This document shows positions 9,758 to 38,877 of a stretch of 64,000 nucleotides of DNA, piece after piece; the first letter of the stretch is position 1, and the number at the start of each line of letters is the position of its first letter. The position numbers and the translations under genes are program-made. The DNA comes from Aquimarina mycalae (GTDB lineage: Bacteria > Bacteroidota > Bacteroidia > Flavobacteriales > Flavobacteriaceae): NCBI RefSeq assembly GCF_029906345.1, contig NZ_JARYGY010000001.1, positions 594,851 to 658,850 of the forward strand. The letters are read 5' to 3'. A model generated the notes under the pieces. The model was not told the origin of the DNA. It worked only from the letters and a program-made list of their open reading frames with translations, and ran no database searches.

Positions 9758-10522
9758 ATGAAACATCTATGCCTCATTATTATAACCATAATTGTTTTTG
9801 GTTGTAAAGAAAAGAAAACAGAAAAATCTATTGTAAATACAGCTGAACAAGTTAACACAGCTGAAAAGAAAAAAACATTTCCAAAATTAGAGCCTAACCG
9901 TTACAACGTGGCTTTCTTAATTATGGATGGCACCTACAATACTGAATTTACTGCACCTTTTGACATTTTCCAGCATACGCAATATCGTGAAAACATCAAG
10001 CAGATGAATGTTTTTACTGTTGCCAATACAGATGCGCCTATTACAACATTTGAAGGAGTAAAGATCATCCCAGATTATAATTACACAAAAGATTCTTTAC
10101 CAAAAATTGATATTCTGGTTGTACCAAGTGCTGAACATCATTTAGATTCAGACCTAGAAGATGATGTTATGATAAACTTTGTAAAAACGGTCGATAAATC
10201 TGCCACATATATGACTTCTCATTGCGATGGTGCCTTTGTGCTTGCTAAAGCAGGAATATTAAACAATGTTGTTTCGACTACTTTTCCTAGTGATATAGAC
10301 AAGATGCGTACTATGTTTCCTGGTTTAGATATTAGAAAAGACGTTTTATTTGTTCATGATGGTAAATATATTACCTCTGCTGGTGGTGCTAAAAGTTTTG
10401 AGGCGGCTTTATATCTGTGCGAGTATTTATATGGAGCAGAAATAGCAAGATCGCTTGCAAGAGGTCTTGTTATTGACTGGAACCTTGAAGAAGTTCCTCA
10501 TTTGATTATTTCTGAAAAGTAA
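9758..10522 (+). CDS. DJ-1/PfpI (glutamine-amidotransferase-like) lipoprotein
   Basis: A 254-residue lipoprotein; the signal ends in VFGCKEKK. The rest is a DJ-1/PfpI fold: VAFLIMDGTYNTEFTAPFDI as the first strand and nucleophile-side loop, IDILVVPSAEHH, and MTSHCDGAFVLAKAG with the nucleophile-elbow Cys at about residue 156, then FPSDI and YITSAGGAKSFEAALY. Intracellular relatives act as glyoxalases, isonitrile hydratases or the sensory half of AraC regulators. An envelope-anchored version has no clear role. It follows the MFS gene and ends at a strong terminator. Confidence 0.82.
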   Translation: MKHLCLIIITIIVFGCKEKKTEKSIVNTAEQVNTAEKKKTFPKLEPNRYNVAFLIMDGTYNTEFTAPFDIFQHTQYRENIKQMNVFTVANTDAPITTFEGVKIIPDYNYTKDSLPKIDILVVPSAEHHLDSDLEDDVMINFVKTVDKSATYMTSHCDGAFVLAKAGILNNVVSTTFPSDIDKMRTMFPGLDIRKDVLFVHDGKYITSAGGAKSFEAALYLCEYLYGAEIARSLARGLVIDWNLEEVPHLIISEK

Positions 10523-10540
10523 CAAAACATTATACATATA

Positions 10541-10570
10541 AAAAGCGTTCCTTTTACAGAACGCTTTTTT
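10541..10570. terminator. Bidirectional intrinsic terminator
   Basis: AAAAGCGTTC and GAACGCTTTT form a 10-bp stem with a 10-nt loop and T-runs on both strands. It ends the MFS/DJ-1 operon from the left and the first small-RNA-like element from the right. Confidence 0.9.
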
Positions 10571-10738
10571 CAATTTTAGGGCAAATCACGTACTCTCTTT
10601 AGCTTCCAGATTTGGGGTCTTTCAGACTAATGTCCTCACACCTAATGAGCCCCGACGTATTCCAAACTAAAATTTTAAATCTGTATCGTCACACAGGTTA
10701 AAATGTTAATTCTGGCCATACATCAAAGTGTTTTTAAG
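10541..10738 (-). ncRNA. Candidate small RNA, copy 1 of a tandem family
   Basis: On the minus strand a probable -7 box TATCTTTA (10752-10745) is followed by about 200 nt without a reading frame, ending in the hairpin terminator at 10541-10570. Two boxes are shared with copies 2 and 3: GTGTGAGGACATTAG (10641-10627) and CTAAAGAGAGTACG (10602-10589). They are enclosed by a helix in which 10653-10643 pairs with 10588-10578 (GGGC with GCCC, then AUUA with UGAU). Inside, GTC/GAC around a GAA-rich loop can form a small hairpin. A known flavobacterial RNA family such as Flavo-1 is possible, but I cannot check the match. Confidence 0.55.
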
Positions 10739-10905
10739 TTGTAGTAAAGATATTGTAAAAAAACTGTTAATCCAAAAATAATCACGTTAAAAAACATAAA
10801 TATTCGATGAAATACACAAAATAGTGTGTTTTTTAACATTTTAAAGAGAATAAAGACTAAAAATGTCCCGTGAATATATCTATGAATTCCTGATTTTGAG
10901 GTTTT

Positions 10906-11110
10906 ATAAAAAAAGAAAAGTGATCTTAGGTAAGATCACTTTTGCTTATGGGTAAATTACGTACTCTCTTTAGTTATTAGATTTGGGGTCTTTAGACTAA
11001 TATCCTCACACTTAATTTATCCCAATGTGTATTCCAAAAAAAATTTCAAAACCATATCGTCATATTTCTTGAAATCTTATTTTAATGAACACACATTACA
11101 TACTTTTTTA
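10906..11110 (-). ncRNA. Candidate small RNA, copy 2 of a tandem family
   Basis: This has the same layout as copy 1: -7 box TATCTTTA at 11124-11117, about 205 nt to a terminator hairpin (AAAAGTGATCTT / AAGATCACTTTT, 10917-10943), and a minus-strand T-run. The conserved boxes are GTGTGAGGATATTAG (11011-10997) and CTAAAGAGAGTACG (10973-10960). The enclosing helix is kept with different bases: GGGATAAATTA (11023-11013) pairs with TAATTTACCC (10959-10950). That compensatory change argues for an RNA structure rather than a DNA repeat. Shared flanking words TATCGTCA and GGAATAC lie upstream. No protein frame fits. Confidence 0.55.
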
Positions 11111-11229
11111 TAGTTATAAAGATATATTAATTTCTGTACCAAAACGGTAGTAAAACAAAAAGTTATTAACAAAATAACGATTAAGTGTTAATTAAACCCG
11201 TTAAAATACACAAAATCTAATCCAAAAGG

Positions 11230-12654
11230 TTATTCAAAAGAGTGGTATTTAGAGGTGCCTAAATACTTTTTAATTAGTTCATTATACTCTTTAGATAATT
11301 TTAATGCCAATGTACCTTCTATTACATACAGTTGTTCTATGTCCTTAAATCCATGCTGTAACATTTTTTCTAAGTAAAAAAGTGCTGTTTCATAATCTTG
11401 ATCCATCGCACTAAAAGAAATAACATTTCGATACGATTCGAAATCTTCTTTATCCACTATTGTACTCAAAACATTTAAAAATATTTTTTGATCCAATACT
11501 TGTTCTTCTTTAGTCTTATCTTCTTTTTTATATTCTTTAATAAGGTTTTTGAGGTATCCTTTTATTCTAAAAGCCATATTAGTGGCATATTTTTCATTCG
11601 ATACTATTAGCGTATCTAATTCATTCATTCGATATTGCCACCAACCTAAATTCTCATATTGACTAAACTCAACATCCTCTTCTAAAGACAAAAACAATGT
11701 CTCTCGTAGAAACCCTTCTCTATTATGATATTTTGATCTTAATCTTTTTTCTTTTTTATACACACTGAGCTTCTTAATTCTTTTTTGTTCTTCTTTTAAA
11801 AAATCAGTCTCAAAAAATAAATGATATTTATTCCTTATTCTTGTTAACTCATCATATGCATGTAAGTAGGCTTTTTTCTTTTCTAATAATTCTACTTCTC
11901 TAAGGTCTTTTTCATATGCTTGTTTTACCCAAGTAGAATCTGTTAGTATTTTACCTTTTAACATATCTTGTAATGTAAAAGATAACAAAGCTTTTTTCAT
12001 TAGACTTTGTAATGGAAGGGCTTCATTTTTATCATAGACATATATATCTGTAGGTACAGATTTCCTTTTTAAGTACTTTTTTGTATTCAAAAAATATTGA
12101 TACCTAAAATTTTTATCATGTACTACTCCTATATAAGAGAAGTCTTTTCTTACCTTAACAGATTCGTTATAATAGTAAGTGTTATTTATTGCGATTACAC
12201 CATTAAACTCTTTATATATAATAGGTAACAAACTATTTAGTGTCGCATCCTCACCGATACCTGTTACATAAATTCTTCTATTATGAATTGGCAAAAGAGA
12301 AAAAATATGTTCCATAATTAACGGTACATAATCCGATTTATCATTAATGTTTGATTTTTCGGGAAAATCGGCAACTACTACAACATAGTTTAATTCTTCT
12401 GCAGCCTTACTAAACAGTGTAGTGATGGCATTCGCATTGCCTGTAGAATCAAATCCAAAAAGTATTGGCCAAGTTTTACTTAAATCAAAAGATTTGGGCA
12501 AGTATATGCTATAATTACTTCCTTCTTTAGAGGGAATACTTAAAGAATCAATGACTACACCTTTTTTCAATCTTAGCCTTTCTTGACCATATGATTGTGC
12601 AATTGTGCACAAAAATGTACTTAACAAAACAGTTCTAATCAAATGTAATATCAC
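11230..12654 (-). CDS. Secreted alpha/beta-hydrolase-fold protein, catalytic serine missing
   Basis: A 474-residue protein with a signal peptide (to QSYGQ), a hydrolase-like N-terminal domain (about 25-215) and a long charged helical C-terminal half rich in Lys/Glu (about 220-474). It is a paralog of the protein at 17585-18769. Both share IDS-S near the start, YLPKSFD, and the same fold order. At the nucleophile elbow, where the paralog reads SGFSGGS, this protein reads TGIGEDA, with Gly134 replacing Ser. It is therefore probably not a hydrolase; a binding or structural role is more likely. Three genes and an RNA element separate it from the paralog. Confidence 0.65.
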   Translation of the reverse strand: MILHLIRTVLLSTFLCTIAQSYGQERLRLKKGVVIDSLSIPSKEGSNYSIYLPKSFDLSKTWPILFGFDSTGNANAITTLFSKAAEELNYVVVVADFPEKSNINDKSDYVPLIMEHIFSLLPIHNRRIYVTGIGEDATLNSLLPIIYKEFNGVIAINNTYYYNESVKVRKDFSYIGVVHDKNFRYQYFLNTKKYLKRKSVPTDIYVYDKNEALPLQSLMKKALLSFTLQDMLKGKILTDSTWVKQAYEKDLREVELLEKKKAYLHAYDELTRIRNKYHLFFETDFLKEEQKRIKKLSVYKKEKRLRSKYHNREGFLRETLFLSLEEDVEFSQYENLGWWQYRMNELDTLIVSNEKYATNMAFRIKGYLKNLIKEYKKEDKTKEEQVLDQKIFLNVLSTIVDKEDFESYRNVISFSAMDQDYETALFYLEKMLQHGFKDIEQLYVIEGTLALKLSKEYNELIKKYLGTSKYHSFE

Positions 12655-13551: not shown

Positions 13552-13612
13552 ATATATGTTTTATTGCACCTAAAAATAGGAAAAGAAAAGCATTCTTAAA
13601 TCATATCTATAA

Positions 13613-13644
13613 AAAAACGCTCAACGTTTAAATTGAGCGTTTTT
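13613..13644. terminator. Bidirectional intrinsic terminator
   Basis: AAAACGCTCAA and TTGAGCGTTTT form a stem with an 8-nt loop and A/T runs on both sides. On the minus strand it ends the symporter transcript together with the RNA-like element just before it. Confidence 0.85.
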
Positions 13645-13705
13645 CCTATCTTTTTCCCGTACTATCTTTAGTTTCTAACCTAATGTCCTCACACAAGATG
13701 CAGAT
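13645..13705 (-). repeat. Third, shortened copy of the small-RNA-like element
   Basis: The minus strand carries the same two boxes as the copies at 10.6 and 11.0 kb: GTGTGAGGACATTAG (13694-13680) and CTAAAGATAGTACG (13671-13658). They are separated by only 8 nt instead of 23-24, so the inner hairpin is missing. A terminator follows at once, as in the other copies. There is no clear promoter here; the element may be part of the symporter mRNA 3' end. Confidence 0.5.
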
Positions 13706-13762
13706 AAATTCTATACACTTATATAGTATCAAATCTTATGCCAAAATGAATTAATTAATCAA

Positions 13763-17584: not shown

Positions 17585-18769
17585 TTATTTAAATTCTGGA
17601 TAGACAAGCTTACGAATTAGATATGTCAATTCTTTTTGTTTTTCATTAGAAGTATACAAATTAGGGTTATTCATAGAATGGGCTATAGCGAAGATTTGAA
17701 AACGTAACCGTTCTAACATTTTTTTCATTTCTATATCCTCATCCTCAAATTTTTCTAATTTGGATAATTCTTTTTGCCACCATTTCACATTAATCTTATC
17801 AGGATTCTTATAATCCTCAAAAAGACGTTTCGTAAACATTTTGGTTAGTTCATTCTCCTTATCAAAGGCTTTGGATACTGATTTCAGCACATTTTTATAT
17901 GCTTTACTATTATGGATTTCTGTAAGCTTATTTTTTATACTATCTAAACGATAAAAAGAATTATATGTAGTAAGTGTACGTTCATAATTTTCTACTGCTA
18001 CTAACAAATCTTCTTCTCTTTCAGCCTTTAATGCAAGATTATACATCTTCTGATAACTTTTATAAATCTCTGAAGTTTCTTTGACCTTAACCTCTTTAAT
18101 ATGTAACTGAATTTCTAACCAATCGAATGCTTTTAGAATCTGATCCGAAGGAGTCCAGCTATGTGTTCCATCGTAAGTAATCAAAGTATTTGTAAAATTT
18201 AATTTCTGTAAATATCCCTTTGCCCTGATCATTTCCTGATAATTCATATCTCTGTTTCCACAAACACCTGCGTAAACAAATCTTTGAGTAGTTGGGATAT
18301 GAGATTGTTCTAAAGAAAAACCAGCTCCGCAACCTATAACTCCAGCGATTTGATCAGTCAATACTGCAATAGCTGAAGCTAGTCGTGACCCACCTGAAAA
18401 CCCTGATAAGTATACTTCATTTTGCTTAATCTTAAAATTAGCAAAGACAAATTCGAATAATCGATTCGTGATTTCAAAATTACGATCGTATGGACCATTT
18501 TTAGTATTATTAGAGCAGACTAAGATATATCCATAGGTTTCTGATGCTTTAATAAATTGAGTAATTCCTCTTTTACCTTCAGCTCCTGGATCAAAAACAA
18601 AAACCACTGGAGATACTATATTCGGATCAAACGATTTAGGTAGATACAATGCAAATGTTTCATCCGTCATTCCCGATACAGAAATAGAATCTACAATTTT
18701 TCCAGATTCATATGTTTGCGCAAAAGTTGTTGCACAAATACAAAGCATTATTATTTGTCGTAAAATCAT
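17585..18769 (-). CDS. Secreted alpha/beta-hydrolase-fold protein (esterase/dienelactone-hydrolase-like)
   Basis: A 394-residue protein with a signal peptide (to TTFAQ). The hydrolase domain (about 22-225) has YLPKSFD, the strand VVFVFDPGAEG, the nucleophile elbow LSGFSGGS with Ser125, and a candidate catalytic His at DGTHSWTP (about 203). A helical C-terminal domain (about 230-394) has no clear homology. It is the active-looking paralog of 11230-12654. Its start codon overlaps the stop of the amidohydrolase by 4 bp (ATGA), so translation is probably coupled and the two may act on the same compound class. Confidence 0.75.
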   Translation of the reverse strand: MILRQIIMLCICATTFAQTYESGKIVDSISVSGMTDETFALYLPKSFDPNIVSPVVFVFDPGAEGKRGITQFIKASETYGYILVCSNNTKNGPYDRNFEITNRLFEFVFANFKIKQNEVYLSGFSGGSRLASAIAVLTDQIAGVIGCGAGFSLEQSHIPTTQRFVYAGVCGNRDMNYQEMIRAKGYLQKLNFTNTLITYDGTHSWTPSDQILKAFDWLEIQLHIKEVKVKETSEIYKSYQKMYNLALKAEREEDLLVAVENYERTLTTYNSFYRLDSIKNKLTEIHNSKAYKNVLKSVSKAFDKENELTKMFTKRLFEDYKNPDKINVKWWQKELSKLEKFEDEDIEMKKMLERLRFQIFAIAHSMNNPNLYTSNEKQKELTYLIRKLVYPEFK

Positions 18770-23883: not shown

Positions 23884-26496
23884 ATGAAAATTTCATCATC
23901 AAAAAACAAGTTATTTTTCTTATCTATTGTCTTTGTTTTGGGTATCGGTATCCAAAACATACAAGCTCAGAAAAAGAAAAAGAAAAAATCAAAAAAAGGA
24001 GAGACAGAACAAGTTGATACTCCTAAAAAAGACGCCAAAGAAAAAACAATCGAAGAACTTACTAAAAAGAGTAAAAAAATCGAAGGTTTATTTACAATTT
24101 ATCGAGATTCAACAGATGGTTCGACCAAAATGTTGATCAAGAAAGACCAAATTGGTAAAGAATTCATCTATTTCAGTCAAATTTCTGATGGAGTATTGGA
24201 AGCAGGAGCATTTAGAGGAGCATACCTTAATAATAAGGTTTTTAAAATAGAAAAGCACTATAATAAAATAGAGTTTGTAACTCAGAACGCTTCTTACTAC
24301 TTTGACAAAAACAATGCTTTATCTAAAGCCGCCGAAGCTAATATTAGTGAGGGAATTATGGCTAGTTTAAAAATTGAAGCTAAAGACGAAGAAAAAGGAT
24401 TGTATTTAATTAAATCTGACGATCTTTTTCTAAAAGAGACGTTTGAACAGATCAAAGCACCAAATTTTCCAGGACAATCTCCTTTTGCTTTTAAATTAGG
24501 TTCCCTTAGCAAAGAGAAAACTAAAATCAAGACTATCAAGAACTATCCAGAAAATACCAATATTAACAGTCACTTAGTATATTCTAAATCTTCTATTATT
24601 AATGGAGGCTCAAGTGCTGTAACTGATGGTAGAAATGTTACTATTAAAGTTGAACATAGTCTTATTGCTATGCCCGATAATGATTATAAACCAAGATTTG
24701 ATGATCCTAGAGTTGGGTATTTCTTTACGCAGGTTACTGATATGACTTCTGCAAGTCCAACACCGTACAGAGATTTAGTGCATCGTTGGAATCTTATTAA
24801 AAAAGATCCAGGTTTAGCATTATCAGAACCAGTAGAACCTATCACATGGTGGATAGAAAACACTACCCCTATAGAATTTAGAGAAACTATTAAAGAAGCT
24901 GTACTAGAATGGAATAAAGCATTTGAAAAAGCTGGTTTCAAAAATGCAGTAGCGGTAAAGATTCAACCAGACGATGCAGAATGGGATGCTGGAGATATTA
25001 GATATAATGTACTGCGATGGACATCTTCTCCGAGACCTCCTTTTGGTGGATATGGCCCTAGTTTTGTAAATCCAAGAACTGGAGAAATTATGGGAGCTGA
25101 TATTATGTTAGAATATGTATATCATACGAATAGAGTAATGTATGATAAATTATTTAACCTTACCGCTAACAATGAATTAGAACAGAACAATTATCCAACG
25201 GCGATTAAGAATAAACAATTACACTGTTCTTATGGCCACATTATGCAGGAAAATTCTCTTTTTGGACAAGCTGCTTTAGCGGCTTATGGAGCTAATGACA
25301 ATGAAATGAAAGGTATGCGTATGGAGGCTATGAAAGAGCTTATTATGCATGAAGTAGGTCATACATTAGGATTAAATCACAATATGAAAGCCAGTCAATT
25401 ATTCTCGCCAGAGCAATTGAATGACCCTGAATTTATCAAGGGTAAATGTCTTACAGGATCCGTTATGGATTATACGGTAATTAATGTCGCAAACGATAAA
25501 CTAAACCAAGGACAATACTTTTCTACCACTGTAGGACCATATGACGAATGGGCTATTCAGTATGGGTATACTCCTGTAAATTCTAAGGCTGAATTGGAGA
25601 ACATCGCTAATCAATCCAATAAAGCTGAGCTAATCTTTGGAAACGATGCAGATGATATGCGTTCACCAGGTAAAGCAATCGACCCAAGAGTAATGACTGG
25701 TGATCTTTCTAATGATCAAATTACATATTCAATCAACAGAATGGAATTAGTCAATGAACTCATGCCTAAAATCAAATCTAAGTTTAGTAGAAAAGGACAA
25801 TCATATCAAGAGTTAAGACAATCCTTCTACATTTTAAGAGGGCAATATGGTAGAGCTGGAGATGTTATTTCCAGATTTATTGGTGGTGTATATGTAGATC
25901 GAAGTATGGTAGGGCAAGATTCAAATGCAAAACCATTTACTCCTGTAAGTTATGAAGATCAAAAAAGAGCCATGAATGCTTTGAAGAAATACGTTTTTGC
26001 CCCTAATGCTTACAAAGCACCTAATGATCTATATAATCATATTGCTATGCAAAGAAGAGGTTATAACTTCTTTGGTGGCCCAGAAGATCCTAAGATTCAT
26101 GCATTGATTCTTAATTATCAACAAAGAGTTCTGAACCATATTATGCATCCTAATACATTACAACGTATTACGGATTCTGAACTGTATGGTAATACATACA
26201 AATTATCAGAATTAATGACAGATCTTAATACAGCTATTTTTCAAGCGGATGCTGCTGGTTCTATTAATACTTTTAGACAAAATTTACAATTAGAGTATAC
26301 TAAAAGGCTTATTGGTATTGTATCAAAAACAGGAACAAAAGGACCACAATATACATACGCCTCTAAATCAATGGCTCTATACAATCTAAAAAGAATTAGA
26401 GCAATGGTATCGAATGGAACTGGAGATAAATTGTCGAAGGCACACAAAGATCATTTAAGAACTTTGATTAATAATACTATCGAAGAGATTAAATAA
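23884..26496 (+). CDS. Large secreted zinc-dependent metalloprotease (DUF5117/DUF4953 type)
   Basis: An 870-residue protein with a signal peptide (to IQAQ), then a Lys-rich stretch of about 45 residues. The DUF5117-like domain covers about 100-320. The metzincin-like catalytic domain contains HEVGHTLGLNHN, with zinc ligands H489, H493 and H499, preceded by RYNVLRWTSSPRPPFGGYGP. Family members are abundant in Bacteroidota and annotated as zinc-dependent metalloproteases; few have known substrates. It is monocistronic, with a strong terminator downstream. Confidence 0.9.
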   Translation: MKISSSKNKLFFLSIVFVLGIGIQNIQAQKKKKKKSKKGETEQVDTPKKDAKEKTIEELTKKSKKIEGLFTIYRDSTDGSTKMLIKKDQIGKEFIYFSQISDGVLEAGAFRGAYLNNKVFKIEKHYNKIEFVTQNASYYFDKNNALSKAAEANISEGIMASLKIEAKDEEKGLYLIKSDDLFLKETFEQIKAPNFPGQSPFAFKLGSLSKEKTKIKTIKNYPENTNINSHLVYSKSSIINGGSSAVTDGRNVTIKVEHSLIAMPDNDYKPRFDDPRVGYFFTQVTDMTSASPTPYRDLVHRWNLIKKDPGLALSEPVEPITWWIENTTPIEFRETIKEAVLEWNKAFEKAGFKNAVAVKIQPDDAEWDAGDIRYNVLRWTSSPRPPFGGYGPSFVNPRTGEIMGADIMLEYVYHTNRVMYDKLFNLTANNELEQNNYPTAIKNKQLHCSYGHIMQENSLFGQAALAAYGANDNEMKGMRMEAMKELIMHEVGHTLGLNHNMKASQLFSPEQLNDPEFIKGKCLTGSVMDYTVINVANDKLNQGQYFSTTVGPYDEWAIQYGYTPVNSKAELENIANQSNKAELIFGNDADDMRSPGKAIDPRVMTGDLSNDQITYSINRMELVNELMPKIKSKFSRKGQSYQELRQSFYILRGQYGRAGDVISRFIGGVYVDRSMVGQDSNAKPFTPVSYEDQKRAMNALKKYVFAPNAYKAPNDLYNHIAMQRRGYNFFGGPEDPKIHALILNYQQRVLNHIMHPNTLQRITDSELYGNTYKLSELMTDLNTAIFQADAAGSINTFRQNLQLEYTKRLIGIVSKTGTKGPQYTYASKSMALYNLKRIRAMVSNGTGDKLSKAHKDHLRTLINNTIEEIK

Positions 26497-38477: not shown

Positions 38478-38871
38478 GGGGTCGACTGGTTTTGACAGCG
38501 AGATTAATAGAGTGGTAAGCACGTCGAGCGCTGAGATATAGCTCGTAAATATCATATTTCACCTTTTTTAAACGGCGAGAATAACTACGCCCTAGCTGCA
38601 TAATCCGAATTATAGTAGGATAATGCCTCGGCTCACTAGGTGAGCAAGCAGGATACTCTTCAAAAGCCTTGGTTTATGGCGTTTGGTTTTGAGTATCGTA
38701 AAAGTAGACCTAGAAATTATAGTATCTCGATATAGTTTCGAAACTAAAGAGAATAAGCGATACGTTGGCGGTTTTTGGTCTTTCATATCGACGAAAATTA
38801 AACAAAAACTAAGCGTGTAGAAAGCTATTGTATTACTTGTTTGGACGAGGGTTCGAATCCCTCCGACTCCA
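38478..38871 (+). ncRNA. ssrA: Transfer-messenger RNA (tmRNA)
   Basis: The 5' end GGGGTCG pairs with CGACTCC at 38864-38870 to form the seven-bp acceptor stem. The T-arm reads GAGGGTTCGAATCCCTC. The tag frame at 38574-38603 reads GGC GAG AAT AAC TAC GCC CTA GCT GCA TAA, that is GENNYALAA, typical of Bacteroidota. The length is about 394 nt. The CCA end is not encoded after the discriminator A (CAG follows), so it must be added. The RNA rescues stalled ribosomes with SmpB and marks the peptides for proteolysis. The downstream side is accessory DNA. Confidence 0.97.
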
Positions 38872-38877
38872 CAGAAT

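Follow-up and report, generated by a model that had tools for sequence, protein, structure and literature searches.

Two long elements and a shorter one at a single locus

The window, by which we mean the whole 64-kb stretch of Aquimarina mycalae DNA that was analysed, carries on its minus strand two elements of about 200 nt that a preliminary description had already reported and that can be aligned end to end. They lie in tandem between a DJ-1/PfpI-like gene (9758-10522, plus strand), which is convergent with the second copy, and an esterase-like gene (11230-12654, minus strand), both names coming from reading the translations. The first copy, long RNA A, is a predicted transcript of ~205 nt (10905-11112), and the second, long RNA B, one of ~200 nt (10539-10740). 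The -7 box TATCTTTA that the two copies were said to share is indeed found upstream of each, as a sigma-A type box at 11124-11117 for RNA A and at 10752-10745 for RNA B, with the +1 expected at ~11112 and ~10740, respectively. The sigma-A -33 consensus includes TTTG, and a possible element of this kind lies 20 nt from the -7 box of RNA B (10773-10776, minus strand); for RNA A, no TTTG was seen by eye at the matching spacing. Each copy ends in a terminator-like hairpin of its own, at 10943-10916 on the minus strand for A and at 10569-10540 for B. The hairpin scan lists the latter on the plus strand, so that it may serve as a terminator for the convergent DJ-1/PfpI-like gene as well. As previously stated, no reading frame fits: no ORF covers either copy, and the overlapping ORFs of at least 20 amino acids are all of 48 amino acids or fewer. 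A second esterase-like gene (17585-18769, minus strand) is a distant relative of the one that flanks the tandem, with 23% identity by tblastn.

Copies A and B are 0.722 identical over the columns of alignment A3, which holds 23 distinct long copies, and the long-form model R1 matches them at 11103-10949 (130.6 bits) and 10732-10578 (148.9 bits). Both fold better than all of their 200 dinucleotide shuffles, with z-scores of -5.10 for A and -4.86 for B. Their conserved cores, which read GTGTGAGGAYATTAG...CTAAAGAGAGTACG, lie at 10957-11015 in A and 10586-10645 in B and score 67.4 and 68.4 bits with model R2, copy A being among R2's own sequences. The core box GTGTGAGGAYATTAG is exact at both of the sites first reported. 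When up to two mismatches were allowed, the window gave three matches against 0.17 expected, all of them exact, the third lying at 13694-13680 and being absent from the preliminary description. A BLAST search with copy B locates two sites in its own genome, and the exact core pattern three.

This third site belongs to a shorter minus-strand member with the same core, missed at first reading, that extends over ~13718-13609. At many loci R1 gave weak matches upstream of the long copies and at similar distances, which correspond to a shorter RNA built on this core. The short RNA of the window is not among the R1 matches listed; it was found by eye at the corresponding place and confirmed by the core pattern and by R2. 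It was read in the sequence as a predicted RNA of ~110 nt (13609-13718) flanked by an alanine-symporter-like gene and an mscS-like one, both named from their translations. It contains the exact core site, and its fold beats all 200 shuffles (z -4.16). Its conserved core occupies 13655-13698 (53.2 bits with R2, among whose own sequences it is), and its terminator-like hairpin 13613-13644, listed on the plus strand by the scan and followed by a T run on the minus strand. Upstream, a putative sigma-54 promoter of the -24/-12 type, TGGCATAAGATTTG, lies at 13730-13743 on the minus strand, with the +1 expected at ~13718.

A conserved core with an asymmetric internal loop

The core shared by these elements consists of a closing helix, an asymmetric 7x5 internal loop (5′ GAGGAYA / 3′ AGAKA), an inner UUAG/CUAA helix and a variable apical loop. 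The long RNAs add a long 5′ hairpin to this core, and their usual apical loop is C-rich (CCCCAAA). The helix said to enclose the conserved boxes while its bases change is borne out (GGG/CCC and then AATTA/TAATT), apart from a purine-purine mismatch that sets it off from the GUGU/GUAC helix further in and that is present in 58 of the 84 long copies.

Covariation among relatives was first sought in A4, which comprises the 21 copies of A3 used for the full-length structure and omits two (L008:1929-2084 and L017:1537-1691) whose 5′ hairpin is not alignable. In A4, 92.5% of cells pair, 13 pairs are doubly changed and the covariation score is 0.219 against 0.160 in shuffles; none of 500 shuffles reaches any of the five measures used. 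Sliding the structure along the alignment lowers pairing to 31-50% of cells, although a slide of +1 still gives 11 doubly changed pairs. All 13 doubly changed pairs fall in the two parts of the 5′ hairpin and none in the core helices, which vary too little in A4 to be testable there. Adding short forms and members from other genera gives the core helices covariation support. In A6, a set of 38 cores chosen by eye, for their diversity, among the 107 distinct ones, 93.1% of cells pair and 58 cells are doubly changed against 19.1 in shuffles (0/500), with double changes in 7 pairs, a number reached by 37 of 500 shuffles. The corresponding values for A7, made of 106 distinct R2 matches fitted to the R2 model, are 94.1% of cells, 120 doubly changed cells against 45.9 (0/500) and 8 pairs (reached by 30/500). 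Moreover, position 4 of the closing helix pairs in all 84 long copies (GC 73, AT 7, CG 3, GT 1), the maximum among shuffles being 76.

The proposal that A and B represent a small-RNA gene family thus finds support in conserved promoter boxes and terminators, lack of coding capacity, covariation, conserved synteny and the presence of two copies whose identities make them look older than several species. Judged by their sequences, A, B and the short RNA are very probably genes of one structured sRNA family.

The internal loop is the most conserved element of the core. Among the 106 rows of A7, its 5′ side reads G in 103 (A in 3), A in 105 (T in 1), G, G and A in all, C in 104 (T in 2) and A in all; its 3′ side reads A, G and A in all, G in 96 (T in 10) and A in all. 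Since these positions barely vary, the loop itself gives no covariation evidence. It is not absolutely invariant either, as AGGCA replaces AGAKA at three loci of two other genera (g48 and g122). The letters of the 106 rows fit a kink-turn, with a GAG bulge, a G1b-A1n pair and an A2b-G/U2n pair (A at 1n in 106, G at 2n in 96 and T in 10). This arrangement recalls the Kt-23 kink-turn, in which two helices flank a bulge followed by G-A and A-(U/G) pairs, and in which A is conserved at 1n and 2b while 2n is mostly U and rarely G (PMC3985660). The fit is known from letters alone, and the inner side of the loop differs from the Kt-23 type (C-A, A-G and an extra A). Because the region past the G-A pairs is non-standard, we treat the kink-turn as a hypothesis. 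A sarcin-ricin or loop-E reading of the same loop was rejected, the covarying closing helix using another register.

Such conservation points to a partner, be it a protein or a tertiary contact, and not only to an mRNA seed, and in the most likely reading of these letters the internal loop would bind one common protein. Sponges of the CsrB/CsrC type present many GGA hairpin loops to CsrA; here, the conserved GGA belongs to an internal loop. At the tip of the 5′ hairpin, the motif TGACGRT is kept in 21 of the 23 distinct copies of A3 and in all 21 of A4 despite a changing stem, and could be a second binding site. Both long RNAs of the window have TGACGATA at this tip (10684-10691 and 11055-11062, minus strand).

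The apical loops bear on two other explanations. These RNAs could be ordinary base-pairing sRNAs in which the C-rich loop CCCCAAAUCU is a seed for G-rich sites in mRNAs, the internal loop being only a stability element or a chaperone site and the short and long forms being paralogues with overlapping targets, each driven by a different promoter. Of the 85 long loops, taken from 57 loci without deduplication, 76 do contain CCC; three short RNAs from g48 and g122 have CCCAAA or CCCGAA in the apical loop, and in one g76 short RNA CCCCAAATCT lies immediately 3′ of the core. However, none of the 45 short loops at the 57 loci contains CCC, and the strongest conservation is that of the internal loop, not of the seed. 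We consider this explanation possible, although rather unlikely.

Alternatively, the short RNA could act as an antisense sponge through loop-loop kissing of a short GGG with the long CCC. GGG is found in 31 of the 45 short loops, facing the CCC of the long ones, and duplexes of matched loops have a mean energy of -5.75 kcal/mol; with the letters of the short loops shuffled, the mean is -3.05 kcal/mol. Yet loops from the same genome do no better than loops taken across genomes (-5.78 kcal/mol), and a GGG loop is absent both from the window, with an energy of -4.5 kcal/mol, and from the relatives closest to it by gene identity, with -2.4 to -4.0 kcal/mol among those listed. Kissing between the two forms is thus improbable.

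Distribution and comparison with known RNAs

BLAST found the element in 16 of the 36 genomes searched, its own included, all from one genus. R1 matches 50 of the 66 Aquimarina genomes, or 49 of the 58 of good quality. Twelve of the 16 R1-negative Aquimarina genomes were re-tested with R2, which gave one match (G066) and none in the other 11. Across the family, the exact core pattern occurs in 6 of 397 genomes and 3 of 237 genera (one match for the reversed control), and R1 in at least 4 of 397, a lower bound because only 7 candidates per genome were scored. In the phylum sample, the core pattern is found in 1 of 395 genomes, which is its own. A scan of named contigs yielded 73 stretches, 63 from Aquimarina and 10 from elsewhere, the latter comprising two Kordia MAG stretches, five from Flavobacteriaceae, one from a Bacteroidia MAG and two chance-like ones. 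Viral contigs gave no match to one narrow long-form pattern, a result of little weight for the whole family.

The short form was sought separately, as a sigma-54 site followed after 20-50 nt by GAGGACATTRG. This pattern occurs in 7 of 259 family genomes and 6 of 235 sampled genera, the reversed control giving one match, and in 2 of the 158 genomes of the order sample, with none among the 135 outside the family. The six distant short RNAs so obtained, our own excluded, all have the UUAG partner by eye (one of them via G-U) and all show, again by eye, a downstream hairpin with a T-rich end; the inner helix is in the lowest-energy fold for only two of them (L224 and L225).

Both forms, as defined by the exact core pattern, are present in 40 of the 62 listed sequences, and in all 40 the short form lies upstream on the same strand. 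The surroundings of these 40 loci bear on whether the elements could be cis-acting leaders or attenuators of downstream genes. In the window, ~60 nt separate the end of the short RNA from the mscS-like gene, and 11 of the 40 loci have an mscS homologue no more than 200 nt downstream of the short RNA. At the other 29, however, the closest window-gene homologue on that strand is a different gene or is further away; the esterase-like gene is within 200 nt downstream at 9 loci, and the others are more distant. Moreover, A and B face a convergent gene and each RNA is closed by a terminator-like hairpin, which makes an attenuator role very improbable.

Comparison across species gives a mean identity of 0.90 between A copies (four copies) and 0.92 between B copies (five copies), against 0.75 between A and B. 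A simple reading of these identities, made without a tree, is that the A/B duplication would predate those species and that both copies were retained, which argues that both work. Several variations on this arrangement were observed. In G015 (contig C8, ~25686-25755; L025 and L096), full copies adjoin a partial one, which is reduced to the 3′ half of a long RNA and has a terminator-like hairpin to itself. One locus (L076, G050:C21) has three long copies and a short one, a further long copy being present on another contig of that genome (L077). Six single long copies (L077, L079, L081, L083, L084 and L086) are on stretches without any homologue of the window genes searched and, for this reason, are considered to lie outside the main locus.

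None of these RNAs corresponds to a described family at Rfam thresholds. Indeed, neither the A/B region nor the short RNA has a match at or above the gathering score of any Rfam 15 family, and the tmRNA gene (38478-38874, plus strand; tag GENNYALAA) is the only feature of the whole window that reaches an Rfam cut-off. The suggestion that A and B might be Flavo-1 (RF01705, cut-off 42 bits) did not hold: the genome has nine Flavo-1 matches, seven of them over the cut-off, and none is in the window. Nor does 6S-Flavo (RF01685, cut-off 85 bits) match the region, its one gene being elsewhere, on contig C24, with 95 bits. As both RNAs sit elsewhere in the genome and neither matches here, A and B are neither Flavo-1 nor 6S-Flavo, which are likewise RNAs of Bacteroidetes (PMC2864571). 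A ~200-nt structured intergenic RNA with a conserved internal loop might also be a 6S RNA that has diverged, or some other housekeeping RNA. With a 6S-Flavo gene over its cut-off on another contig, the idea that A and B are the genome's only 6S RNA is refuted; the tmRNA gene is accounted for at 38.5 kb, and 11 of the 12 Aquimarina genomes re-tested match neither R1 nor R2. The housekeeping explanation is therefore extremely improbable.

Permissive Rfam scans of the region returned only sub-threshold matches, far under the cut-offs, and a scan of five loci at E ≤0.01, a weak test, listed none. The short RNA has two sub-threshold matches to Bacteroides RNAs: GibS (RF04182; E 0.039, 27.6 bits against a cut-off of 115), for which the alignment is strongest at the terminator, and BTnc005 (RF04178; E 0.0014, 23.5 bits against 174.8), which vanishes from the list when a shorter stretch is scanned. 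Rfp18 of Flavobacterium is also a conserved, structured sRNA of Flavobacteriaceae (PMC9723704), a likeness drawn from its description rather than from its sequence; the g143 genomes, guessed to be Flavobacterium, gave no pattern match in the family, phylum and order samples. Among the literature matches listed, no such RNA is named in the titles or in the opening lines of the abstracts. Altogether, A, B and the short RNA most likely constitute a new sRNA family.

Promoters and possible mode of action

The two forms differ in what precedes them. We compared 129 distinct pattern-selected members, 45 short and 84 long. Two chance-like matches, L172 (Anaerocolumna) and L197 (Pseudomonadales MAG), were left out of the counts because they have no sigma-54 site. 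The exact motif TGGCAY-N4-WTTG, with GG-N10-G spacing, is upstream of 45/45 short forms and 0/84 long ones. Conversely, in the interval from 140 to 65 nt upstream of the core, TAnnTTTR is present in 65 of the 84 long forms and in 2 of the 45 short ones, and 52 of those 65 boxes are located 114-118 nt before the core. In Flavobacterium psychrophilum, TAnnTTTG spanning -12 to -5 is reported as the sigma-A box and -24/-12 sites as sigma-54 promoters, the region upstream of one operon having been tested there with reporters and by mutagenesis (PMC9723704). The window has two sites for the sigma-54 pattern where 0.58 are expected, so that a lone site is no evidence and the evidence lies in its conservation. 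The genome does encode sigma-54 (PF04552, 175 bits). The short RNA is thus, in all likelihood, predicted to depend on sigma-54, and the motif counts support well a split between short forms with a putative stress-type, sigma-54 promoter and long forms with a mostly everyday, sigma-A type one.

The presence of one core under two types of promoter invites a competition model such as that of GlmY and GlmZ in enterobacteria. There, RapZ binds GlmZ and leads to its degradation, GlmY acting as a decoy (PMC7073468), and GlmY is transcribed from a sigma-54-dependent promoter (PMC6075780). By analogy, we infer with some reserve, and at rather less than an even chance, that the long and short RNAs are transcribed as trans-acting sRNAs that share a protein and act as effectors and decoy, respectively. 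One protein would bind the k-turn-like core common to both and would control the stability or activity of the long RNAs, which would themselves pair with mRNAs through their C-rich apical loop. Upon firing of sigma-54 and its activator, many copies of the core would be produced as short RNA and would draw the protein off the long RNAs.

The likeness to GlmY/GlmZ lies in the existence of two related RNAs, one of them from a sigma-54 promoter and possibly a decoy. The differences are the phylum, the RapZ partner of the enterobacterial pair, the core, which here is a 7x5 internal loop, and the outcome of covariance searches, since neither GlmY nor GlmZ is among the Rfam matches listed for the region or for the short RNA. 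To our knowledge, no equivalent of GlmY/GlmZ is known in Bacteroidota. A bolder version of the decoy model, which we find unlikely although worth stating, is that of a system proper to Flavobacteriaceae, in which a k-turn-like core would serve a sigma-54 decoy in more genera and duplicated sigma-A effectors in Aquimarina and a few relatives. If true, Bacteroidota would have their own, independent counterpart of GlmY/GlmZ.

In F. psychrophilum, protein quality control, envelope stress and gliding all fall within the sigma-54 regulon (PMC9723704), so that the short RNA may report the state of the cell surface. The contrast between sigma-54 and sigma-A promoters makes the decoy mechanism directly testable. 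In our judgement, regulation by sRNAs is poorly mapped in Bacteroidota. The family described here provides a defined RNA module present in several genera, whose near-invariant loop can be used as bait for an RNA-binding protein, and through it one common RNA core may join two control programmes.
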